Under the pieces are notes generated by a model. That model had not been told where the DNA came from. It searched no databases and worked only from the letters and a program-made list of their open reading frames with translations. From Nanobdellota archaeon (GTDB lineage Archaea > Nanobdellota > Nanobdellia > SCGC-AAA011-G17 > PNOQ01), in assembly GCA_018829185.1 (NCBI GenBank), contig JAHJUI010000016.1, positions 1-34,336 of the forward strand: a DNA stretch of 34,336 nt. Direction: 5' to 3'. Of the stretch, positions 23,114 through 34,154 are shown one piece after another. Positions within the stretch are counted from its first letter, which is position 1, and every line of letters begins with the position of its first letter. The translations under genes and the position numbers were made by a program.

Positions 23114-24761
23114 CTGAAAATTTCATTACTTTTGTCTCCCTTGTTTTTAAATTTACAACTGGTACTCTTGATGGCTCTGGAGAATGACCTACTTTTTCCT
23201 GGAAATCTGTTTTTGATTGCCAACATGAACAGCAAATAGTTGTAACATGTTTATACTGATCTACATTTACTTTGTGTATGTGTCCAGCAACAAAAAAATC
23301 AGGAACTTTATCTATTATCAAGGGGTCTTCTTCCCTAGTTGGAACAAATAATGTTGATCCATGAGTTGGAGCCAAATGCCTCTTCTGTAATAAATATTTC
23401 ATAATTAATGTAGCTCTATCACTTATGTGTGTTCCACTATTTCTTATACTTTCTACATTTTCTGCATAATAATCAAAACAATACCCGTGATATAATAAAA
23501 CATCAAACCCCTCAAAATTCTTAGAAGAATGAATATTTACTAATGAAGGATTTGTAACCATTGTAACATTTGGTAAATCCCAAACTGATTGACTATATTG
23601 CTTATTCAAAACTGGTTGTGGTTCAGATATTCTTATTGCATCGTGATTACCTGCACAAACTATAATTTTTATGTCCTTTCTAATCATAGAAAGGTATTCT
23701 GCAACTTTATCATATTGCCCATTAATGTCTGTTATTGTTAATTCATCTTCTTGTCCGGGATAAATCCCTATACCATCAACTAAATCACCGACAACAAAAA
23801 GATATTTTACTTTTTGAGCTATTTCTCTTTGTTGAGAATTTCCCGCTTTTCCATTTATCCAATTAATAAATTTTAATAAATCTTTTTCTATAAACATATT
23901 GCTTCCAACATGCAAATCGGAAGTAAAAACAGCATAAACTTCATCTTCACATTTCTTTAATGGTTTATCTGGAGGTAAATCAGGAAAAACAACATTTGAT
24001 ACAAAAACTATTTTATCACCTGTAACCCCTGTGACTCCCAGTACTTCATCTAAAACAATATCTTTTGCAGAATCAAAAATATCTTTCCTATTTTTATTAA
24101 TTAATATCTTTATTTCTCCAGAAATATCTTCTAAAGTAATCATAATGTTTCCATTTTTAGTTGTTCTCTTATCTGTAACCAATCCAATTAAAGAAATATT
24201 CTCTCTATTTGACTTATTCAATGCTCTCCGAATAGAAATTGCTTCTTGTAACTCAACTCTATTTTGTAATATCTTCTTCAAAAAATTATATCTTGCTTGA
24301 TAATGCATAACAAAATCTAGAACTTCTTTTTTTCTATGGGTTTCTTCAAACATTTTTAATATTACTAAAGAAGAACCGTCATTTTCTTCTTGAGCGTCTT
24401 CTGGAGAAATTTCCCCTGGCTCTTTTAAATCATCTAACATTTCATTTAAGATTTTTTTCTTCTCATCAGAGAGATCATACTCCATTAAATCTAAAAAAAC
24501 ATTGTAAGCTCTTTGATCTTTTCCTTTCTCAAGTAAAAATTTAGCATTTTCAAACTCTTTCCAATTAATTTCTACTTCTTTTTTATTACTAATTAAAAAA
24601 TTAAGTAAATCTTGATTAATCACCATTGGTTTTTCATCTTTAAAGAAATTTTCAAGCTTAGAAAACGTTTCATCATCAAGGTTCTTCAATTTATCTAAAG
24701 CATCTGGGCTAATTAAAAACCCTTTTTCCATCATCCTAGAAATAATTTCTTCTCCGCTCAT
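23103..24761 (-). CDS. polB: DNA polymerase D small subunit DP1 (3'-5' exonuclease)
   Basis: A 552-residue proofreading subunit of PolD. An N-terminal helical domain (about 1-100) precedes an OB-fold (about 190-260, ISLIGLVTDKRTTKNGNIMI) and the calcineurin-like phosphoesterase domain with all metal motifs: SDLHVGS (about 280), VVGDLVDGIG (about 325), AGNHDAIR (about 373), YHGYCFD (about 423) and AGHIHKVNV (about 492). In PolD this domain is an Mre11-like 3'-5' exonuclease. It overlaps cdc6 upstream by 4 bases and DP2 downstream by 11, so subunit dosage is likely set by coupled translation. Confidence 0.97.
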   Translation of the reverse strand: MSGEEIISRMMEKGFLISPDALDKLKNLDDETFSKLENFFKDEKPMVINQDLLNFLISNKKEVEINWKEFENAKFLLEKGKDQRAYNVFLDLMEYDLSDEKKKILNEMLDDLKEPGEISPEDAQEENDGSSLVILKMFEETHRKKEVLDFVMHYQARYNFLKKILQNRVELQEAISIRRALNKSNRENISLIGLVTDKRTTKNGNIMITLEDISGEIKILINKNRKDIFDSAKDIVLDEVLGVTGVTGDKIVFVSNVVFPDLPPDKPLKKCEDEVYAVFTSDLHVGSNMFIEKDLLKFINWINGKAGNSQQREIAQKVKYLFVVGDLVDGIGIYPGQEDELTITDINGQYDKVAEYLSMIRKDIKIIVCAGNHDAIRISEPQPVLNKQYSQSVWDLPNVTMVTNPSLVNIHSSKNFEGFDVLLYHGYCFDYYAENVESIRNSGTHISDRATLIMKYLLQKRHLAPTHGSTLFVPTREEDPLIIDKVPDFFVAGHIHKVNVDQYKHVTTICCSCWQSKTDFQEKVGHSPEPSRVPVVNLKTRETKVMKFSDES

Positions 24762-25963
24762 AATCCTAAGCCATCTTTCAATACCTGTGATAAACTAGGC
24801 ATTGTCGACGATGGAATGGCCAATTTAATTTCTCTAGTTCTACCATATCTCCCCTTACTAATTACCCTCGCATTAATAATCCCCAACATGTCTAACTCTG
24901 CAATAATATCTGATACTCTTCTTTGTGTTAATGGTCTCAATCCAGATTTAATACAAATATCTTTGTAAACTTCATAAACATCTCCAGTAAATAATTTTTC
25001 ATTTTTCTTTAATGTAGAAAAAATAGCTAACAAAGTAACTTGAAATTGTTTTGGTTGAGTGTGCACAATGTCCAAAACCCTATCTTTCTCTATTTTCTCT
25101 TCTGCCTCATCAATGTGATCTATATCTAATTTAGTTTTATTCTTTCTTTCAGCCAATTCACCTGCTACCCTCAATAATTCTAATGCTCTTCTAGCATCCC
25201 CATGTTCTCTCGCAGCATAAGCAGCACATTTTTCAATAACCCCTTCCCCAACTGTTTCTTTTCTAAACGCCCTTTTTGATCTCTCCCTTAAAATATCTTG
25301 AAGTTGAATTGCATTATAAGGTGGAAAAACTAATTCCTCTTCACTCAAAGAACTTTTAACTCTTGGATCAATATTATCTGTAAACATTAAATCATTAGAT
25401 ATCCCAACAATTGTTATGTTTGCATTTTTCAATTCTGTATTTAACCTAGTTAAGTTGTACAAAAGTTCATCTCCTGCTTTCTTAATTAATTGATCTATTT
25501 CATCTAAAACAATAATTACTATTCTTTCTTCTTTATCTAAAATTTCTAAAAATTTCCTATAAACTTCATCTGTAGGCAATCCAGTAGAAGGTATATTCTC
25601 CCCTAACTCTCTCGCAAGTTGGGCAATCATCCTATATTCTGTATCTGCAACTCTCCTTAACTTACAATTCAAATAAAAAATCTTTAAAGGTATTTTCTTT
25701 CTCTCAGAAATTTCATTTAAGTTATTAATTACATGTTTAACCGATAATGTCTTACCTGTACCAGTTTTCCCATAAAGGAATAAATTAGATGGTTTTTCAT
25801 TTCTTAAAGCAGGTGCTAATATACTCGAAATAGTTTGTATAAGTTCTTCCCTATGCGGGATAGTCTCAGGTGTATAATTTGCTTGTAAAACTTTCTTATC
25901 TACAAATAATGGCTCTTTTTTTAAATAATCGTCAAAGAATGAATTTGAATTATTTTTTATCAT
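24758..25963 (-). CDS. cdc6: Orc1/Cdc6 replication initiator
   Basis: A 401-residue initiator. The AAA+ module has Walker A LFLYGKTGTGKTL (about 62-75), Walker B IVIIVLDEIDQL (about 148), sensor 1 TIVGISNDL and sensor 2 in GDARRALELLRVAGE (about 253). The C-terminal winged helix (about 305-395) contains the recognition region LTQRRVSDIIAELDMLGI and the beta-hairpin KGRYGRTREIKL. Orc1/Cdc6 binds origin recognition boxes and loads MCM. It starts the operon followed by DP1 and DP2 and faces a 611-nt AT-rich gene-free stretch, the usual location of an archaeal origin. The TATA-like GTTTAAATAA (complement of about 25989-25998) is about 30 nt before the ATG. Confidence 0.96.
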   Translation of the reverse strand: MIKNNSNSFFDDYLKKEPLFVDKKVLQANYTPETIPHREELIQTISSILAPALRNEKPSNLFLYGKTGTGKTLSVKHVINNLNEISERKKIPLKIFYLNCKLRRVADTEYRMIAQLARELGENIPSTGLPTDEVYRKFLEILDKEERIVIIVLDEIDQLIKKAGDELLYNLTRLNTELKNANITIVGISNDLMFTDNIDPRVKSSLSEEELVFPPYNAIQLQDILRERSKRAFRKETVGEGVIEKCAAYAAREHGDARRALELLRVAGELAERKNKTKLDIDHIDEAEEKIEKDRVLDIVHTQPKQFQVTLLAIFSTLKKNEKLFTGDVYEVYKDICIKSGLRPLTQRRVSDIIAELDMLGIINARVISKGRYGRTREIKLAIPSSTMPSLSQVLKDGLGL

Positions 25964-26121
25964 TTTAAGAATTTCAAAAGGAATTTTTTATTTAAACATT
26001 ATTGAGTTATAAAATACACTCCCAGACCTCTATTTCCTATGGAATCCTTTTTGTATGTTTCAAATGCAAAATTCTGAACTTACAGCCCTTGACTGCAGAT
26101 AGAAATGAACTTAATTTTTTA

Positions 26122-26156
26122 TGTTATATATATAATATAATATATAATATATAACA
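26122..26156. repeat. AT-rich inverted repeat, likely DNA unwinding element
   Basis: Arms TGTTATATAT (26122-26131) and ATATATAACA (26147-26156) flank a 15-base spacer of A and T only. It is the most easily melted stretch of the intergenic region beside cdc6 and is consistent with a DNA unwinding element of an origin. Confidence 0.6.
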
Positions 26157-26214
26157 ATAAAACTTAAAATACAAATCCCAAAAACAAAAAACAAAAACCA
26201 AGGATTCTTCAATT

Positions 26215-26232
26215 TTAGGGCTTCTACCCTAA
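26215..26232. promoter_or_regulatory. Short inverted repeat TTAGGG-N6-CCCTAA in the candidate origin
   Basis: Perfect 6-bp arms TTAGGG and CCCTAA around CTTCTA. In such an AT-rich stretch a GC-containing dyad is notable. It could be an initiator site, a protein-binding operator or a hairpin at the end of a short transcript; the sequence alone does not decide. Confidence 0.4.
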
Positions 26233-26574
26233 GATTTCAAAACAGGGTATTTTCAAGCAAATTGCCCATTTTTCGCTAAAGAAAGATAACAAATTTTCAT
26301 GAATTTTAAACTTTAGAAATATCTGGATTTAAAGTTCCTAACGCTCCAAACGCAATAATTTGAAAAATTCAAATCTCCAAAAGAAACCAAGGTGTGAGGG
26401 TCCAAGAAATATAGATATTAGAGAAAAACAAATTTCCTCAAAACTTAAAAGTTTTTCCTAAAATTTAAAGAGAACCTCTTAACTTTTAACAACCATCTTA
26501 GATAATCTCTATTTTTTCTCAGAAAACTTTATAAAGAAGTGTTCACTCTCTAAACTATCTTGGAGGCGTTAAAT

Positions 26575-30482: not shown

Positions 30483-30887
30483 ATGCCAATTGTAGGATTT
30501 AACTTTGATAAAATATCAGTTGAAAAAACAGGAAAAATAGCAGGAAAGCTAAACATAAAGCAAAGTACTGGAATTAAAACTGTAGAACAAGAAAAATTAT
30601 TATTAGGTACCCCAGAAGAAGTTCTTAAATTTGGATTTGAATATAAAATAGATTATGGTGGAATAGGAGAAATCAACCTATTGGGACATGTTCTTTTCTT
30701 AGATGAGCCAAAGAAGATAAAGGCAATTCTAGATCAATGGAAGAAGAATAAAAACATAGAAAGAGTAATTATGGAACAGGTAGTTAATGCAATCTTGTAC
30801 AAATGTACTATTAAGTCATTAAACTTGGCTCAAGAGGTAAACTTACCACCACCAATTAAACTACCTATGGTCGAATCTAAAAAATAG
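30483..30887 (+). CDS. Conserved archaeal protein of unknown function
   Basis: A 134-residue soluble protein. It is alternating strand-rich at the N-terminus (MPIVGFNFDKISVEKTGKIA), with a central FGFEYKIDYGGIGEINLLGH followed by VLFLDEPKKIKAILDQWKK, a helix (IERVIMEQVVNAILYKCTIK) and a Pro-rich tail (EVNLPPPIKLPMVESKK). The beta-beta-beta then long-helix order with tail is loosely like a SecB-type chaperone fold, which I offer only as a weak possibility. I believe proteins beginning MPIxGFNFDKI recur in DPANN archaea, but no function is known to me. It has its own strong promoter and ribosome site and ends directly against a convergent small gene. Confidence 0.75.
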   Translation: MPIVGFNFDKISVEKTGKIAGKLNIKQSTGIKTVEQEKLLLGTPEEVLKFGFEYKIDYGGIGEINLLGHVLFLDEPKKIKAILDQWKKNKNIERVIMEQVVNAILYKCTIKSLNLAQEVNLPPPIKLPMVESKK

Positions 30888-31214: not shown

Positions 31215-31478
31215 ATGGTTAGACTATCAGATAAGACAACAACCCTTCTAAAAAACGATATTCTAGCTATTTTATATGAATCTTCTTTGAAACCAATGTA
31301 TACTTCCCATATTGCCGAGGAGTTAAGAAGAGACAACGAGTTCGTTCTTAAGTTATTATTAGAATTAAAAAAAGAGAGATTAGTGAAGGAAGTTACTAAA
31401 GGAAAGCGAGGAGAATATCTTGCTAGGAAAAAATGGATAATTCCTTTAGAAGCTAGACAAAGGATGGACGTTATATAA
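31215..31478 (+). CDS. Small winged-helix DNA-binding protein
   Basis: An 87-residue protein that is a single winged helix-turn-helix. KNDILAILYESSLKPMYTSH is the first helix and turn, IAEELRRDNEFVLKLLLELK the recognition helix region, and KKERLVKEVTKGKRGEYLAR the wing, with basic residues. It resembles small MarR/ArsR-like archaeal regulators. TATA-like CCTTAAATAG at about 31182-31191 lies 28 nt before the ATG, consistent with a leaderless transcript. It is followed at once by the iteron-bearing spacer before the next regulator gene, so it might act on those repeats; that is speculation. Confidence 0.7.
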   Translation: MVRLSDKTTTLLKNDILAILYESSLKPMYTSHIAEELRRDNEFVLKLLLELKKERLVKEVTKGKRGEYLARKKWIIPLEARQRMDVI

Positions 31479-31480
31479 CT

Positions 31481-31542
31481 ATTCACTCATTCACGCACAT
31501 CCTAAACACATCCTATGCACTTATTCACTCGGCTACGCACAC
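31481..31542 (+). repeat. Direct repeats (iterons) upstream of the coiled-coil/wHTH gene
   Basis: The unit TATTCACTC-N4-ACGCACA occurs twice, at 31481-31500 and 31523-31542, starts 42 bases apart (four helical turns). Between them ACATCCTA occurs twice (31498-31505 and 31509-31516). The array lies immediately upstream of a TATA-like CTATTTAAAC (31548-31557), about 27 nt before the ATG at 31582. The position is that of a regulator-binding site controlling that gene. The TATTCACTC part recurs inside the gene at 31813-31821. Confidence 0.75.
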
Positions 31543-31581
31543 AAAACTATTTAAACTTTTATTAACCCCCCCCACTAAATA

Positions 31582-32199
31582 ATGGTTGAAGACCCCATAT
31601 TTAAGGAAATAGTACGTAATTCTTTTAAGAAAGCACGAGATCACATGAATTCCCTAGAGACTCAAATAAAGGCCCAGAAAGCCGAAATTCAAGCTATTAA
31701 AACCCTTTTAGAACAGATTAAAGGACAAAGGATACCCAATTCTACAGAATTCTTACAAGAAGAGCCTTCTAAGCTAGAAATCCAAAAAAGTTCCATAGGA
31801 AATGAAGGGGTCTATTCACTCACTCACTCGGTCACTCACTCACTCACTAAGCACATAAACAACCTAAATAACCTAGAAAAAACCTTGAAAAGGGCCTTCT
31901 CAAGGCTCACAAGGCAAGAATTCTTAGTTTTCCTCACAATATATCAATTAGAGGACGAAATAAGCGAGGTTACCCACTCTCACTTAGCACAAAAACTCAA
32001 ACTTACCGAGGGCTGCATTAGAAGTTATGTAAGTAGCATAATCCGTAAAGGATTACCTCTCACTAGACAGAAAATCAACAATAAACTAACTATTTTACGC
32101 ATATCTACTGAATTTAGGGCCATGAACCTTAAACAAACTCTCACTAACATGTTTTATGACATAGATCCTAACCAAACAAACTTACTTGATAATACTTAA
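31582..32199 (+). CDS. Coiled-coil plus winged-helix DNA-binding protein (plus-strand member of a pair)
   Basis: A 205-residue protein. An N-terminal coiled coil (about 12-50, MNSLETQIKAQKAEIQAIKT) leads to a linker (about 51-98) and a C-terminal winged helix (about 100-178): LTRQEFLVFLTIYQLEDEI, HSHLAQKLKLTEGCIRSYVS as the helix-turn-helix, and a wing (RQKINNKLTILRIS). The linker includes VYSLTHSVTHSLTKH, encoded by a dense CACT repeat (31813-31856) that shares TATTCACTC and GCACA with the upstream iterons. The gene at 32289 on the opposite strand has the same architecture but a different motif. A run of eight C (31566-31573) lies between TATA box and ATG. It is probably a dimeric DNA-binding protein; its target is inferred to be its own repeats. 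Confidence 0.72.
   Translation: MVEDPIFKEIVRNSFKKARDHMNSLETQIKAQKAEIQAIKTLLEQIKGQRIPNSTEFLQEEPSKLEIQKSSIGNEGVYSLTHSVTHSLTKHINNLNNLEKTLKRAFSRLTRQEFLVFLTIYQLEDEISEVTHSHLAQKLKLTEGCIRSYVSSIIRKGLPLTRQKINNKLTILRISTEFRAMNLKQTLTNMFYDIDPNQTNLLDNT
31813..31856 (+). repeat. Intragenic CACT-rich repeat sharing the upstream iteron motif
   Basis: TATTCACTC (31813-31821) is followed by repeated CACTCACT, CGGTCACTCACT and AAGCACATA units to about 31856. The head equals the first nine bases of both upstream iterons, TCACTCGG also occurs in the second iteron, and GCACA matches their end. It encodes residues 78-92, in the linker before the winged helix. The repetition is at the DNA level: coding for it uses CTC and CAC codons otherwise uncommon in this AT-rich genome. 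Confidence 0.7.
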
Positions 32200-32288
32200 T
32201 GAACTCTCACTTTCGATTTTTACAAAAAAGGTCAATTATTAAGAATTAGGCCCCTAGAAGCCCTGTAGCCCCAGAATTCTAATTAAAA

Positions 32289-32924
32289 CTACCCTATATA
32301 ATCTCTCACTGGCACTACTTCAATACCCTCTTCTGAGCTATTCCCCCCCATATTTCCCTCAGAATCAACCCTTCCTTTAACCTTTTTTTGCCCCAATTCC
32401 TCCTTTAACTCATCGTTTAAATAGAATACTTTTGATCTGTTCTTCACACTTATCTTCTCTTTCACTTCTACACCTGCTCTTTTAATATCATTAATATGTC
32501 TCCTTACAGTCACAATACTAGACCCGACTTTATCTGCAATTACTTGATAATTTAATGGATTTTTTGATTGAAGCAACAAAAATACCACCTGTTTTTGACT
32601 CGGAGTAAGATTTTTTATCGTTTGAACGTTCATGAACGATTCTGAATGATTGAACGATTGAACGCGTTCAATCGTTGAACGCCCAACTTTAGATTTTTTA
32701 CCCTTAAGATCAAGCAACATTTGCTCTAATAGGATTAATCTTTCTTCGATTTTAGTTAATCTACCATGATGTTCTTCCTTCTTTGAATGCAAGTGATCAA
32801 TGTGACCCATAGAGTGTTCAAAATCACGTTTTATATTCGAGAAAGAAGACTTTAAACTAGAATGTAATTGGTTTATTTTCTCTTCAGAATCACCTTCTTT
32901 TTTCTTAAACCACAAGAAACCCAT
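32289..32924 (-). CDS. Coiled-coil plus winged-helix DNA-binding protein (minus-strand member of a pair)
   Basis: A 211-residue protein. The N-terminus is MGFLWFKKKEGDSEEK, similar in style to the MGFFDRFK start of the ATPase at 33435. A coiled coil follows at about 14-75 (INQLHSSLKSSFSNIKRDFE, ERLILLEQMLLDLKG), then a linker (76-105) and a winged helix (about 106-172): LTPSQKQVVFLLLQSKNPLN, YQVIADKVGSSIVTVRRHIN as helix-turn-helix, then the wing NRSKVFYLNDEL. A Gly/Ser/Glu tail follows. The linker (residues 81-102) is encoded by a cluster of TGAACG motifs. The same motif forms a palindrome just upstream of the promoter. The upstream neighbour is a broken nucleotidyltransferase whose 3' end overlaps the operator. 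Autoregulation is likely. Confidence 0.74.
   Translation of the reverse strand: MGFLWFKKKEGDSEEKINQLHSSLKSSFSNIKRDFEHSMGHIDHLHSKKEEHHGRLTKIEERLILLEQMLLDLKGKKSKVGRSTIERVQSFNHSESFMNVQTIKNLTPSQKQVVFLLLQSKNPLNYQVIADKVGSSIVTVRRHINDIKRAGVEVKEKISVKNRSKVFYLNDELKEELGQKKVKGRVDSEGNMGGNSSEEGIEVVPVRDYIG
32621..32683. repeat. Intragenic cluster of TGAACG motifs with a 24-bp palindrome
   Basis: Within about 60 bases TGAACG occurs at 32623, 32633, 32651, 32659 and 32676 on the plus strand, and its complement CGTTCA at 32627 and 32665. Bases 32653-32676 are a perfect 24-bp palindrome centred on AACGCGTT with arms AACGATTG and CAATCGTT; TGAACGTTCA (32623-32632) is another. The cluster lies inside the gene at 32289-32924, encoding the linker between its coiled coil and its winged helix. 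Confidence 0.85.
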
Positions 32925-32969: not shown

Positions 32970-33001
32970 TTGAACACAGTTGAACGTTCAAACATGTTCA
33001 A
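32970..33001. promoter_or_regulatory. Palindromic operator upstream of the minus-strand wHTH gene
   Basis: A perfect palindrome TTGAACGTTCAA (32980-32991) is flanked symmetrically by TTGAACA (32970-32976) and TGTTCAA (32995-33001), all centred on 32985/32986. This gives a symmetric site with four half-sites of TTGAAC. The minus-strand gene starts at 32924, and a TATA-like CTTTAATAA (complement of about 32948-32957) lies between them, so the site is just upstream of the core promoter. The same half-site recurs in the gene itself at 32621-32683. The site also covers the 3' end of the broken nucleotidyltransferase gene. Confidence 0.8.
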
Positions 33002-33358
33002 ATGAAAGACTAGGATCATAAATTACCTTCCCCATTTCGTGTAGTAAACTAGGTTCTCTTCCTTGTCCATCATCTAAAACAATACCTGTTTCATAATCAC
33101 TTTCATAATAAAATACAATATGGAATCTCCCATTTAATGACTCTAAACGTTTATTGACATCTTGTGGCAGCCCCAACGGAATACCTTCAAGGTCTAAGGG
33201 AAAACACTAGATAAATCATCTAAAATAAAAGCAAGATCTATATCCCTTCCATCACTACAATCTCCATTTAAAACAGAACCATATAGAACTATTTTAGATA
33301 TACTTTCTATTCCCTTTGTCCTCTCTACGGCCAATTCAGCTAATTTATACCTTTCCAT
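32988..33358 (-). pseudogene. Frameshifted minimal nucleotidyltransferase (MNT)
   Basis: Minus-strand reading from ATG 33358 gives a 54-residue start, MERYKLAELAVERTKGIE..., containing the MNT catalytic motif VLYGSVLNGDCSDGRDIDLA (GS then D-x-D), ending at a TAG at 33194-33196. In the adjacent frame the protein resumes as LDLEGIPLGLPQDVNKRLES and continues to 32988 with REPSLLHEMGKVIYD, the typical end of an MNT domain. Reading FP-LDLEG across the junction needs one extra T in the TTCCCTTAG stretch (about 33194-33202). So one base has been lost, either truly or by sequencing error. MNT proteins often pair with HEPN proteins as toxin-antitoxin modules; no HEPN gene is adjacent. Confidence 0.75.
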
Positions 33359-33434: not shown

Positions 33435-34154
33435 TTAGAATTTTCTAAAAGCTTTACTTACATTATCAGACCAGAAACCAGGCAAATCATAACTTAAAAG
33501 CCCTTCAAAATCATCACTCCAAACAAAGAAATATTTCTCTTTAACATCATCATCTTTTAAATCTTTAAAAATCTTAGAAACCCTTTCATACATATCTTTT
33601 ATGCCCTTTCTTTCAAATTTAGTTTGCAATAGCGACGGTTCCTTTAGCAAAACAATATCAGCTAATCTTAAAACATTTAAGTCAATCATAGCAGAGCTCT
33701 GAGCTATTAAAATTAAAGTTAAGTTCTTATGCCTAGCAATAGCCATTATCTTCCCAAGATCTTTACTTGATTTTTTCATTGAATCCCTTGAAGAAAAGAA
33801 TATTGCCCCCTCATCAATTAAAACAGTAGAATTAACAGGAACCTTATCTAGGCTTTCTACTTTCTTTATCCATCTTGGAAGTTTAGAATCTTCATAGCCA
33901 AGAACATAACAGTTCTGGCCAGTTTTATAATGAAATAGCTCTAAAAATCGCATTCCTAACGAACTCTTACCAGAACCCCTTCTACCAGTTAAAAGGACAA
34001 CAGTGCTATGGTTTGTTATTTGATCTAAGAATTTTTCATGAGAACCAACTTCAGATTTCTCTAAATTAAACGCTGTAAAACTTTTCTTTTTACGTTTTTC
34101 TTCTTCTCTTTTTTCAAATATCTTTTGTGGCTTAAACCTGTCAAAAAATCCCAT
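33435..34154 (-). CDS. Zot/FtsK-HerA-like P-loop ATPase
   Basis: A 239-residue cytoplasmic ATPase. A basic N-terminus (MGFFDRFKPQKIFEKREEEK, followed by RKKK) leads to Walker A LLTGRRGSGKSSLGMRF (about 53-69). The Walker B equivalent STVLIDEGAIFFSSRDSM (about 108) is followed by ALTLILIAQSSAMIDLNVLR-like sensor sequence (MAIARHKNLTLILIAQSS, about 140-157). The AIARHKNLTLILIAQ pattern is typical of Zot-like and genome-packaging ATPases of viruses and plasmids and of the FtsK-HerA superfamily. Its true job here is unknown: DNA transfer or packaging in a mobile element, or a host function shared with the neighbouring coiled-coil proteins. TATA-like TTATATAT (complement of about 34176-34183) is 26 nt before the ATG. 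The right inverted repeat begins 14 nt further upstream. Confidence 0.72.
   Translation of the reverse strand: MGFFDRFKPQKIFEKREEEKRKKKSFTAFNLEKSEVGSHEKFLDQITNHSTVVLLTGRRGSGKSSLGMRFLELFHYKTGQNCYVLGYEDSKLPRWIKKVESLDKVPVNSTVLIDEGAIFFSSRDSMKKSSKDLGKIMAIARHKNLTLILIAQSSAMIDLNVLRLADIVLLKEPSLLQTKFERKGIKDMYERVSKIFKDLKDDDVKEKYFFVWSDDFEGLLSYDLPGFWSDNVSKAFRKF

Follow-up and report, generated by a model that had tools for sequence, protein, structure and literature searches.

The locus lies on contig JAHJUI010000016.1 of a Nanobdellota archaeon (assembly GCA_018829185.1), in a stretch of 34,336 nucleotides that was analysed as a whole and is hereafter called the window. It is centred on gene A, which is flanked by two small syntenic genes, a paralogue (gene B) and, further upstream, an Orc1/Cdc6 gene (cdc6) with a candidate replication origin (Table 1). 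In the AlphaFold model of A (mean pLDDT 85.8), a long helix (residues 5-48) is followed by a low-confidence linker (~49-80), a second helix (81-107) and a winged helix (~107-180), whose recognition helix comprises residues 143-155. The stretch encoded by DNA repeats sits, at low confidence, between the long helix and the winged helix.

Table 1 Features of the gene A locus and of the neighbouring cdc6 region (window coordinates).
Feature	Position	Strand	Basis or remark
Orc1/Cdc6 gene (cdc6)	24758-25963	-	profile/sequence match
Canonical oriC candidate	25964-26559	.	ORB-like boxes and AT tract upstream of cdc6
oriC candidate, reverse ORB-like box	ends 26044	-	box scan
oriC candidate, AT-only tract	~26115-26163		
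oriC candidate, forward ORB-like box	~26376-26395	+	by eye
S134, syntenic gene of unknown family	30483-30887	+	synteny
H87, small winged-helix protein, often beside A	31215-31478	+	synteny
Promoter iteron 1 (TATTCACTC-N4-ACGCACA), TATTCACTCATTCACGCACA	31480-31499	+	pattern search
Promoter iteron 2 (TATTCACTC-N4-ACGCACA), TATTCACTCGGCTACGCACA	31522-31541	+	just upstream of TATA-like TATTTAAA
Gene A, 205 aa: coiled coil, linker, winged helix	31582-32199	+	ORF, searches, AlphaFold
Embedded ORB-like box GTTCCATAGGAAATGAAGGGGT, 22 bp	31790-31811	+	ORB consensus (PMC4164010)
Linker-coding iterons, CTCA units of NNCA type	31813-31856	+	directly 3' of the box
CTCTCACT array, sites starting 31977, 32057, 32138, 32204, 32303	31977-32310	+	motif scan
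Recognition-helix codons, residues 143-155	32008-32046	+	AlphaFold, column scan
S148 codon, residue best predicting the repeat unit	32023-32025	+	column scan
Gene B, convergent paralogue of A	32289-32924	-	paralogy
Gene B GTTCAA/TTGAACG repeats, linker	~32620-32685		inside B
Gene B GTTCAA/TTGAACG repeats, promoter	~32971-33005		

With the 205-residue protein as query, 52 of 61 genomes gave a match, among them that of the window. A profile search found the family in 84 of 103 genomes of the window's order and in 92 of 188 at class level, many of the latter matching over the winged helix only. Named relatives come mostly from Nanoarchaeota and Woesearchaeota MAGs, and the source is accordingly taken as a DPANN archaeon. 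Hereafter, the window's order is referred to as the first order and the other order with A genes as the second; together they supplied 103 A genes. The gene order S134, H87 (when present), A, B is kept widely among 54 loci, and B adjoins A in all 54, either convergently or in tandem. Sequence searches of Pfam, NCBIfam, PHROGs and PDB returned only generic winged-helix matches. Foldseek suggested a MarR-like winged helix-turn-helix (wHTH) fold for A (best E 1.3e-4, TM 0.34 on query), and a Pfam MarR match was obtained for 2 of 36 family members. In VIA-align many wHTH families tie: MarR, MntR and LexA shared Z scores of ~9-10 with the winged helices of Cdc6/ORC, and the list was dropped as family evidence. 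Searches of viral, plasmid and phage sequences found no relatives of A, so a recent capture of a plasmid or virus replicon finds no support.

The initial annotation had drawn attention to two iterons 42 bases apart upstream of the TATA box of gene A. The spacing is indeed 42 bp, and the pair is exact and unique: TATTCACTC-N4-ACGCACA matches twice in the 826,748-base genome, both times at the promoter iterons, and the reversed control pattern gave no match. TATTCACTC has three copies in the window, at 31480, 31522 and 31813. The third opens the tract that had been assigned to the linker between coiled coil and winged helix, an assignment with which the AlphaFold model agrees. With up to two mismatches, TATTCACTCACTCAC has three copies genome-wide, all at the gene A locus; with up to three, five of nine genome matches are at the locus and the reversed control gives 13. 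Consistent with the earlier remark that the codons are atypical, CTC makes up 7 of 25 Leu codons in gene A compared with 1.5% across 20 other window genes, and CAC all 6 His codons compared with 21%.

Throughout the family the tract is built from NNCA repeats: the window has CTCA, other genomes TTCA, ATCA, AACA, AGCA, GACA or CGCA. A tandem run is present in 67 of 99 A genes, the first run most often beginning 3, 7 or 11 nt after the ORB-like box described below, and pure runs reach nine units. For the 54 first-order loci, promoter and linker share 9.41 7-mers with their own partner versus 2.40 with other families, a value that none of 2000 permutations reached; DNA encoding the coil or the winged helix showed no excess 7-mer sharing with the promoter at these loci. 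Promoter and linker repeats thus belong together, as had been proposed; the refuting condition set in the initial annotation, a microsatellite that varies freely and has no relation to the promoter sequence, does not hold. Likewise, the gene's own unit occurs 4.34 times per promoter against 1.14 for other units, and it exceeds the others in 63 of 79 first-order loci. Second-order A promoters are without own-unit repeats (own above other units in only 5 of 20), which means that the function common to both orders cannot be promoter autoregulation.

Immediately 5' of the repeat tract, nearly every A family member carries a box of the form TTCCA..GGAAATNAAGGGGT. The box matches the common archaeal ORB, TCCA[CG]T[TG]GAAA[TC][GA]AAGGGGT, given for Ori-Finder 2 (PMC4164010). 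Over both orders, 100 of the 103 A genes have a box that scores 15 or more out of 20, and in 93 of the 103 no other place in the gene scores above 13; the score leaves out two of the 22 positions, 6 and 7, although one of them is conserved. The exact ORB expression matches 19 of 103 A genes, a number that rises to 73 when both spacer bases and another two positions are relaxed. Third positions at which synonymous change is possible are near fixed, with the C of TCC in 102 and the G of GGG in 101 of 103 genes; in other window genes, TCC accounts for 3.3% of Ser codons and GGG for 17.8% of Gly codons.

Most A genes have a single box, translated as SS.GN.GV. It is translated as VP[QL]E in ten loci (L042, L043, L044, L046, L064, L194, L203, L234, L235 and L261), and L046, L194 and L203 contain two boxes in two frames. 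Its presence in 100 of 103 genes, in a different frame in several lineages, indicates that selection acts on DNA. In this comparison of homologues, the box is conserved as DNA and not as protein, and the repeat unit differs between genomes. Together with the codon bias and the promoter-linker sharing, these data support the annotated view that the constraint is on DNA. A second box occurs in the promoter of 4 of 97 A genes. In L043, L044, L049 and L082, the A promoter has a copy of the box along with repeats, which looks like an upstream duplication of the linker segment. Allowing two mismatches, the 20-base box is found in 44 of 61 genomes, with no match for the reversed control. By their coordinates, six matches outside A lie just upstream of cdc6 (G004, G019, G024, G029, G052 and G055). 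We infer from its sequence that the embedded box is a predicted Orc1/Cdc6 site.

We then asked which residues of A go with the repeat unit. For the recognition statistics, four of the 103 genes with an unclear unit were dropped (L073, L085, L192 and L245); for L190 and L254 the upstream box was used instead. Residue 148, which directly follows the conserved Arg147, ranked first of 184 alignment columns in predicting the unit (z 20.7, 99 of 103 genes). The next-best columns were linker residues encoded by the repeats themselves and C145, G144 and S152 of the recognition helix. In raw counts over the 103 genes, Thr148 goes with TT in 13 of 16 cases, Asp with GA in 24 of 32, Ala with AG in 5 of 6, Asn with AT in 5 of 6 and Val with AA in 3 of 3; Gly goes with AT in 11 and AA in 9 of 22. 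Ser148, present in 13 genes, is found with CT in five, AT in four, and CG, TT, AA and AG once each. Five further residues occur once each at this position.

The association held when only closest disjoint pairs were compared (p 0.0014, versus 0.35-0.65 for control columns), which supports it beyond shared ancestry. On a tree built without the linker and the recognition helix, 10 of 24 changes at residue 148 fell on a branch with a unit change, where 5.4 were expected (P 0.011). The tree test is modest, and by the share of its changes that co-locate S148 comes only 7th among 156 columns; in the second order GA and AA labels are often tied, which adds false unit changes. In partial Mantel tests, values for the recognition helix and the wing were 2/200 and 0/200, but the C-terminal segment also gave 4/200. 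Because the recognition helix tracks the repeat unit, A very probably binds the repeat; in other words, these alignments suggest that A very probably reads its own gene. The reader is likely to be the 205-residue A protein itself.

A third element overlaps the 3' part of gene A. The initial annotation had noted that CTCAC is frequent elsewhere in this gene, and 10 of its 17 copies in the window do fall between 31819 and 32305. Their abundance there stems from a separate array of CTCTCACT/CTCACTTT sites sharing the consensus AACTCTCACTTTT. In 54 loci, from -500 to +1300 of the box, 135 array sites are on the A-sense strand versus 4 on the opposite strand, with a median spacing of 104.5 bp; in 20 second-order loci the numbers are 58 and 1, with a median spacing of 85 bp. 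An exact search for ACTCTCACTTTT in 61 genomes gave 40 matches, 28 of them at this locus by coordinates. Judged by these motif counts, the AACTCTCACTTTT array is a third, strand-specific, conserved element of the locus. In family f2 (G009 and G028), an array lies in non-coding DNA between S134 and B, and A was not found; a close Cdc6-1 match was likewise absent from the search of these two genomes. The f2 array consists of regularly spaced, one-strand CTCTCACTTT sites (L156 4380-4840, L157 4440-4790). Since f2 keeps the array although A was not found there, CTCTCACTTT is disfavoured as a site of A.

The wHTH gene at 31582 had been described as following the same design as its neighbour with an unrelated motif. 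In the window that neighbour, gene B, has GTTCAA/TTGAACG repeats in both linker and promoter, but visual inspection showed such sharing plainly in no more than 4 of the 14 convergent B genes (those of the window, L083, L046 and L053). Over the 14 convergent B genes, promoter-linker sharing was matched in 1 of 2000 permutations, many of the shared words being generic; in tandem B genes the sharing is weak (86 and 103 of 2000 permutations). In other loci the linker repeats of convergent B genes read VQT or SFN, and none stand out in tandem ones.

The A site is 5.4 kb from the oriC candidate beside cdc6 in the window. By coordinates, cdc6 is on the A contig in 35 first-order genomes, at 3.7-32 kb, and within 1.5-11 kb of A in 16 of 20 second-order genomes. 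Six second-order loci (L199, L200, L204, L206, L209 and L210) have inverted boxes 1.4-2.3 kb upstream of the A box, and their most AT-rich 60-mer is 93-100% AT. DNA upstream of cdc6 was scanned for ORBs at 30 loci, of which 21 were counted, the other nine being those without a located N-terminus; 14 of the 21 have a box scoring at least 15 and four have an inverted pair, against a within-gene control maximum of 14. The A site, in contrast, offers a single box in coding sequence without an AT tract, the inverted pair and AT tract being found at cdc6 instead. The canonical arrangement upstream of cdc6 thus argues that the A box is an extra ORB beside oriC and not a classical oriC. In G011 (100% complete), A is present and a close Cdc6-1 match is absent. 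A PIP-like QxxL tail is found in 47 of 54 first-order A proteins compared with 5 of 55 B proteins and 89 of 452 ORFs longer than 150 aa; it is not general among second-order A proteins. The tail hints that A may be coupled to the sliding clamp.

The initial annotation was right in part, on the constraint on DNA and on the link between promoter and linker; it did not notice the ORB beside the repeat, oriC and cdc6 close by, the switch of repeat unit from one genome to another, or the way the recognition helix follows that switch. Of the readings that take these into account, control of replication initiation ranks first, and we give about an even chance to the proposal that A and Orc1/Cdc6 assemble at a composite site near oriC to exert it. 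A would be a DNA-binding protein that is linked to the origin and recognises its own gene, with a winged helix that would read the 4-bp NNCA repeats in its own coding sequence, 3' of the Orc1/Cdc6 box, and, in one order only, those in its own promoter. Binding of Orc1 to the box would most likely place A and Orc1/Cdc6 side by side close to oriC, and such joint assembly would be the simplest reading. Initiation could be affected, for instance, if the site passed on or titrated the initiator, or if A transcription were tied to the state of the origin. What the sequences show directly is the ORB-like box with its independence of reading frame, the sharing of repeats by promoter and linker, the co-variation of unit and recognition helix, and the linkage to cdc6; these, with the near-invariant synonymous positions and the PIP-like tail, speak for the proposal. 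Counting against it are the silent GC skew, the canonical oriC with inverted boxes beside cdc6, the single box of most A genes, the limited spread of promoter repeats and QxxL tail in the second order, the missing Cdc6-1 match in G011 and the modest tree test.

Purely autoregulatory function ranks behind and seems unlikely. A would then use an auxiliary operator in its own gene, and the ORB would let Orc1/Cdc6 modulate transcription with no role in initiation. The 63 of 79 first-order loci whose promoters carry their own unit and the apparent MarR-like wHTH fold favour it, and MarR-type autoregulators have both the winged-helix fold and promoter sites. However, box and linker repeats persist in the second order although its promoters lack repeats (5 of 20). 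The A sites differ from those of MarR-type proteins in being intragenic, joined to an ORB and, in one order, missing from the promoter. With the linker site constant and the promoter sites lineage-limited, the linker site should have a role beyond autoregulation.

We also consider it rather improbable that the locus is a replication origin in its own right, fired by A with Orc1/Cdc6 in the manner of lambda O, besides or replacing the oriC at cdc6. Box, iterons and polar array do come together inside and downstream of gene A, and lambda ori maps within gene O (PMC5043065). But no AT-rich unwinding tract adjoins the iterons (AT of 0.689 at +450..+1000 vs 0.686 for the locus in the first order, 0.718 vs 0.706 in the second), and canonical inverted boxes with an AT tract sit at cdc6. 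GC skew is silent: in two single-contig genomes (G038 and G014) neither A nor cdc6 coincides with a minimum of the kind expected at an origin, and the skew was set aside as an origin test, being uninformative in both. A tetranucleotide microsatellite or protein-level low-complexity linker without a DNA role is very improbable: pure runs of up to nine units suggest that slippage contributes, but the repeat is common to linker and promoter, scarce elsewhere in the genome and tracked by the recognition helix, and the box is fixed, with near-invariant synonymous positions and shifts of frame; promoter sharing and recognition-helix tracking refute the simple microsatellite form.

Phage lambda ori lies within gene O (PMC5043065, PMC7466680), and the likeness is that of iterons amid the gene of their binding protein. 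The linker-coding sequence of A holds iterons in the same way, co-variation being what points to A as their probable binder. Compared with lambda, the A locus is in a cellular archaeal chromosome, has an Orc1/Cdc6 box beside the iterons and no adjoining AT tract, changes its 4-bp units between genomes together with the recognition helix, and is a putative origin. PHROG searches gave one weak O-like match, for gene B (E 0.001; 1 of 24 B members), and none among the matches listed for 36 A members. It is possible, if doubtful, that a cellular chromosome here has a lambda O-like, self-encoded origin or origin-control element, in which an Orc1/Cdc6 box and iterons lie in the initiator's own linker, a wHTH recognition code has switched repeatedly (TTCA-Thr, CTCA-Ser, ATCA/AACA-Gly, AGCA-Ala, GACA-Asp), and protein and embedded site evolve as one unit.

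Archaeal oriC regions with ORBs (PMC4164010, PMC12141716) resemble the A site in ORB sequence and nearby cdc6; the A box is single, within coding sequence and present besides a canonical oriC. A Sulfolobus origin defined by the winged-helix protein WhiP is alike in linking a winged-helix protein other than Orc1/Cdc6 to an origin region (PMC12141716), whereas the A site is inside its own gene. If the reading is correct, translation turns a replication-control site into a segment of the very protein that binds it. Such a site would be missed by origin finders confined to intergenic DNA, such as Ori-Finder 2 (PMC4164010). The A family would also provide ~100 natural protein-site pairs for reading a winged-helix recognition code. 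DatA-type titration sites are initiator boxes away from oriC but near it. The A box is similarly placed, whereas the A locus has one box coupled to a gene-specific DNA-binding protein. To our knowledge, DPANN replication is almost unstudied. No such site was recognisable by title or abstract opening in the DPANN/Woesearchaeota replication-origin literature, a scope with subscription papers mostly outside it.

Several further observations were made around the locus. The second A copies in L083 (G008:C12) and L046 (G026:C57) lie on 4.6- and 6.6-kb contigs and resemble the second order, with an SSIRDY helix, GACA-type repeats and no QxxL tail. They may be contamination; both were left out of the first-order-only column scan and kept in other counts. 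In L035, the gene directly upstream of A (G048:C15 ~74403-74681) encodes a fusion of an A-type winged helix with an N-terminal domain that resembles a NucS-type nuclease. At 33435-34154, the window encodes a P-loop ATPase with a weak Zot-domain match, which is beside the locus in the window and in L033 only among the 54 loci.
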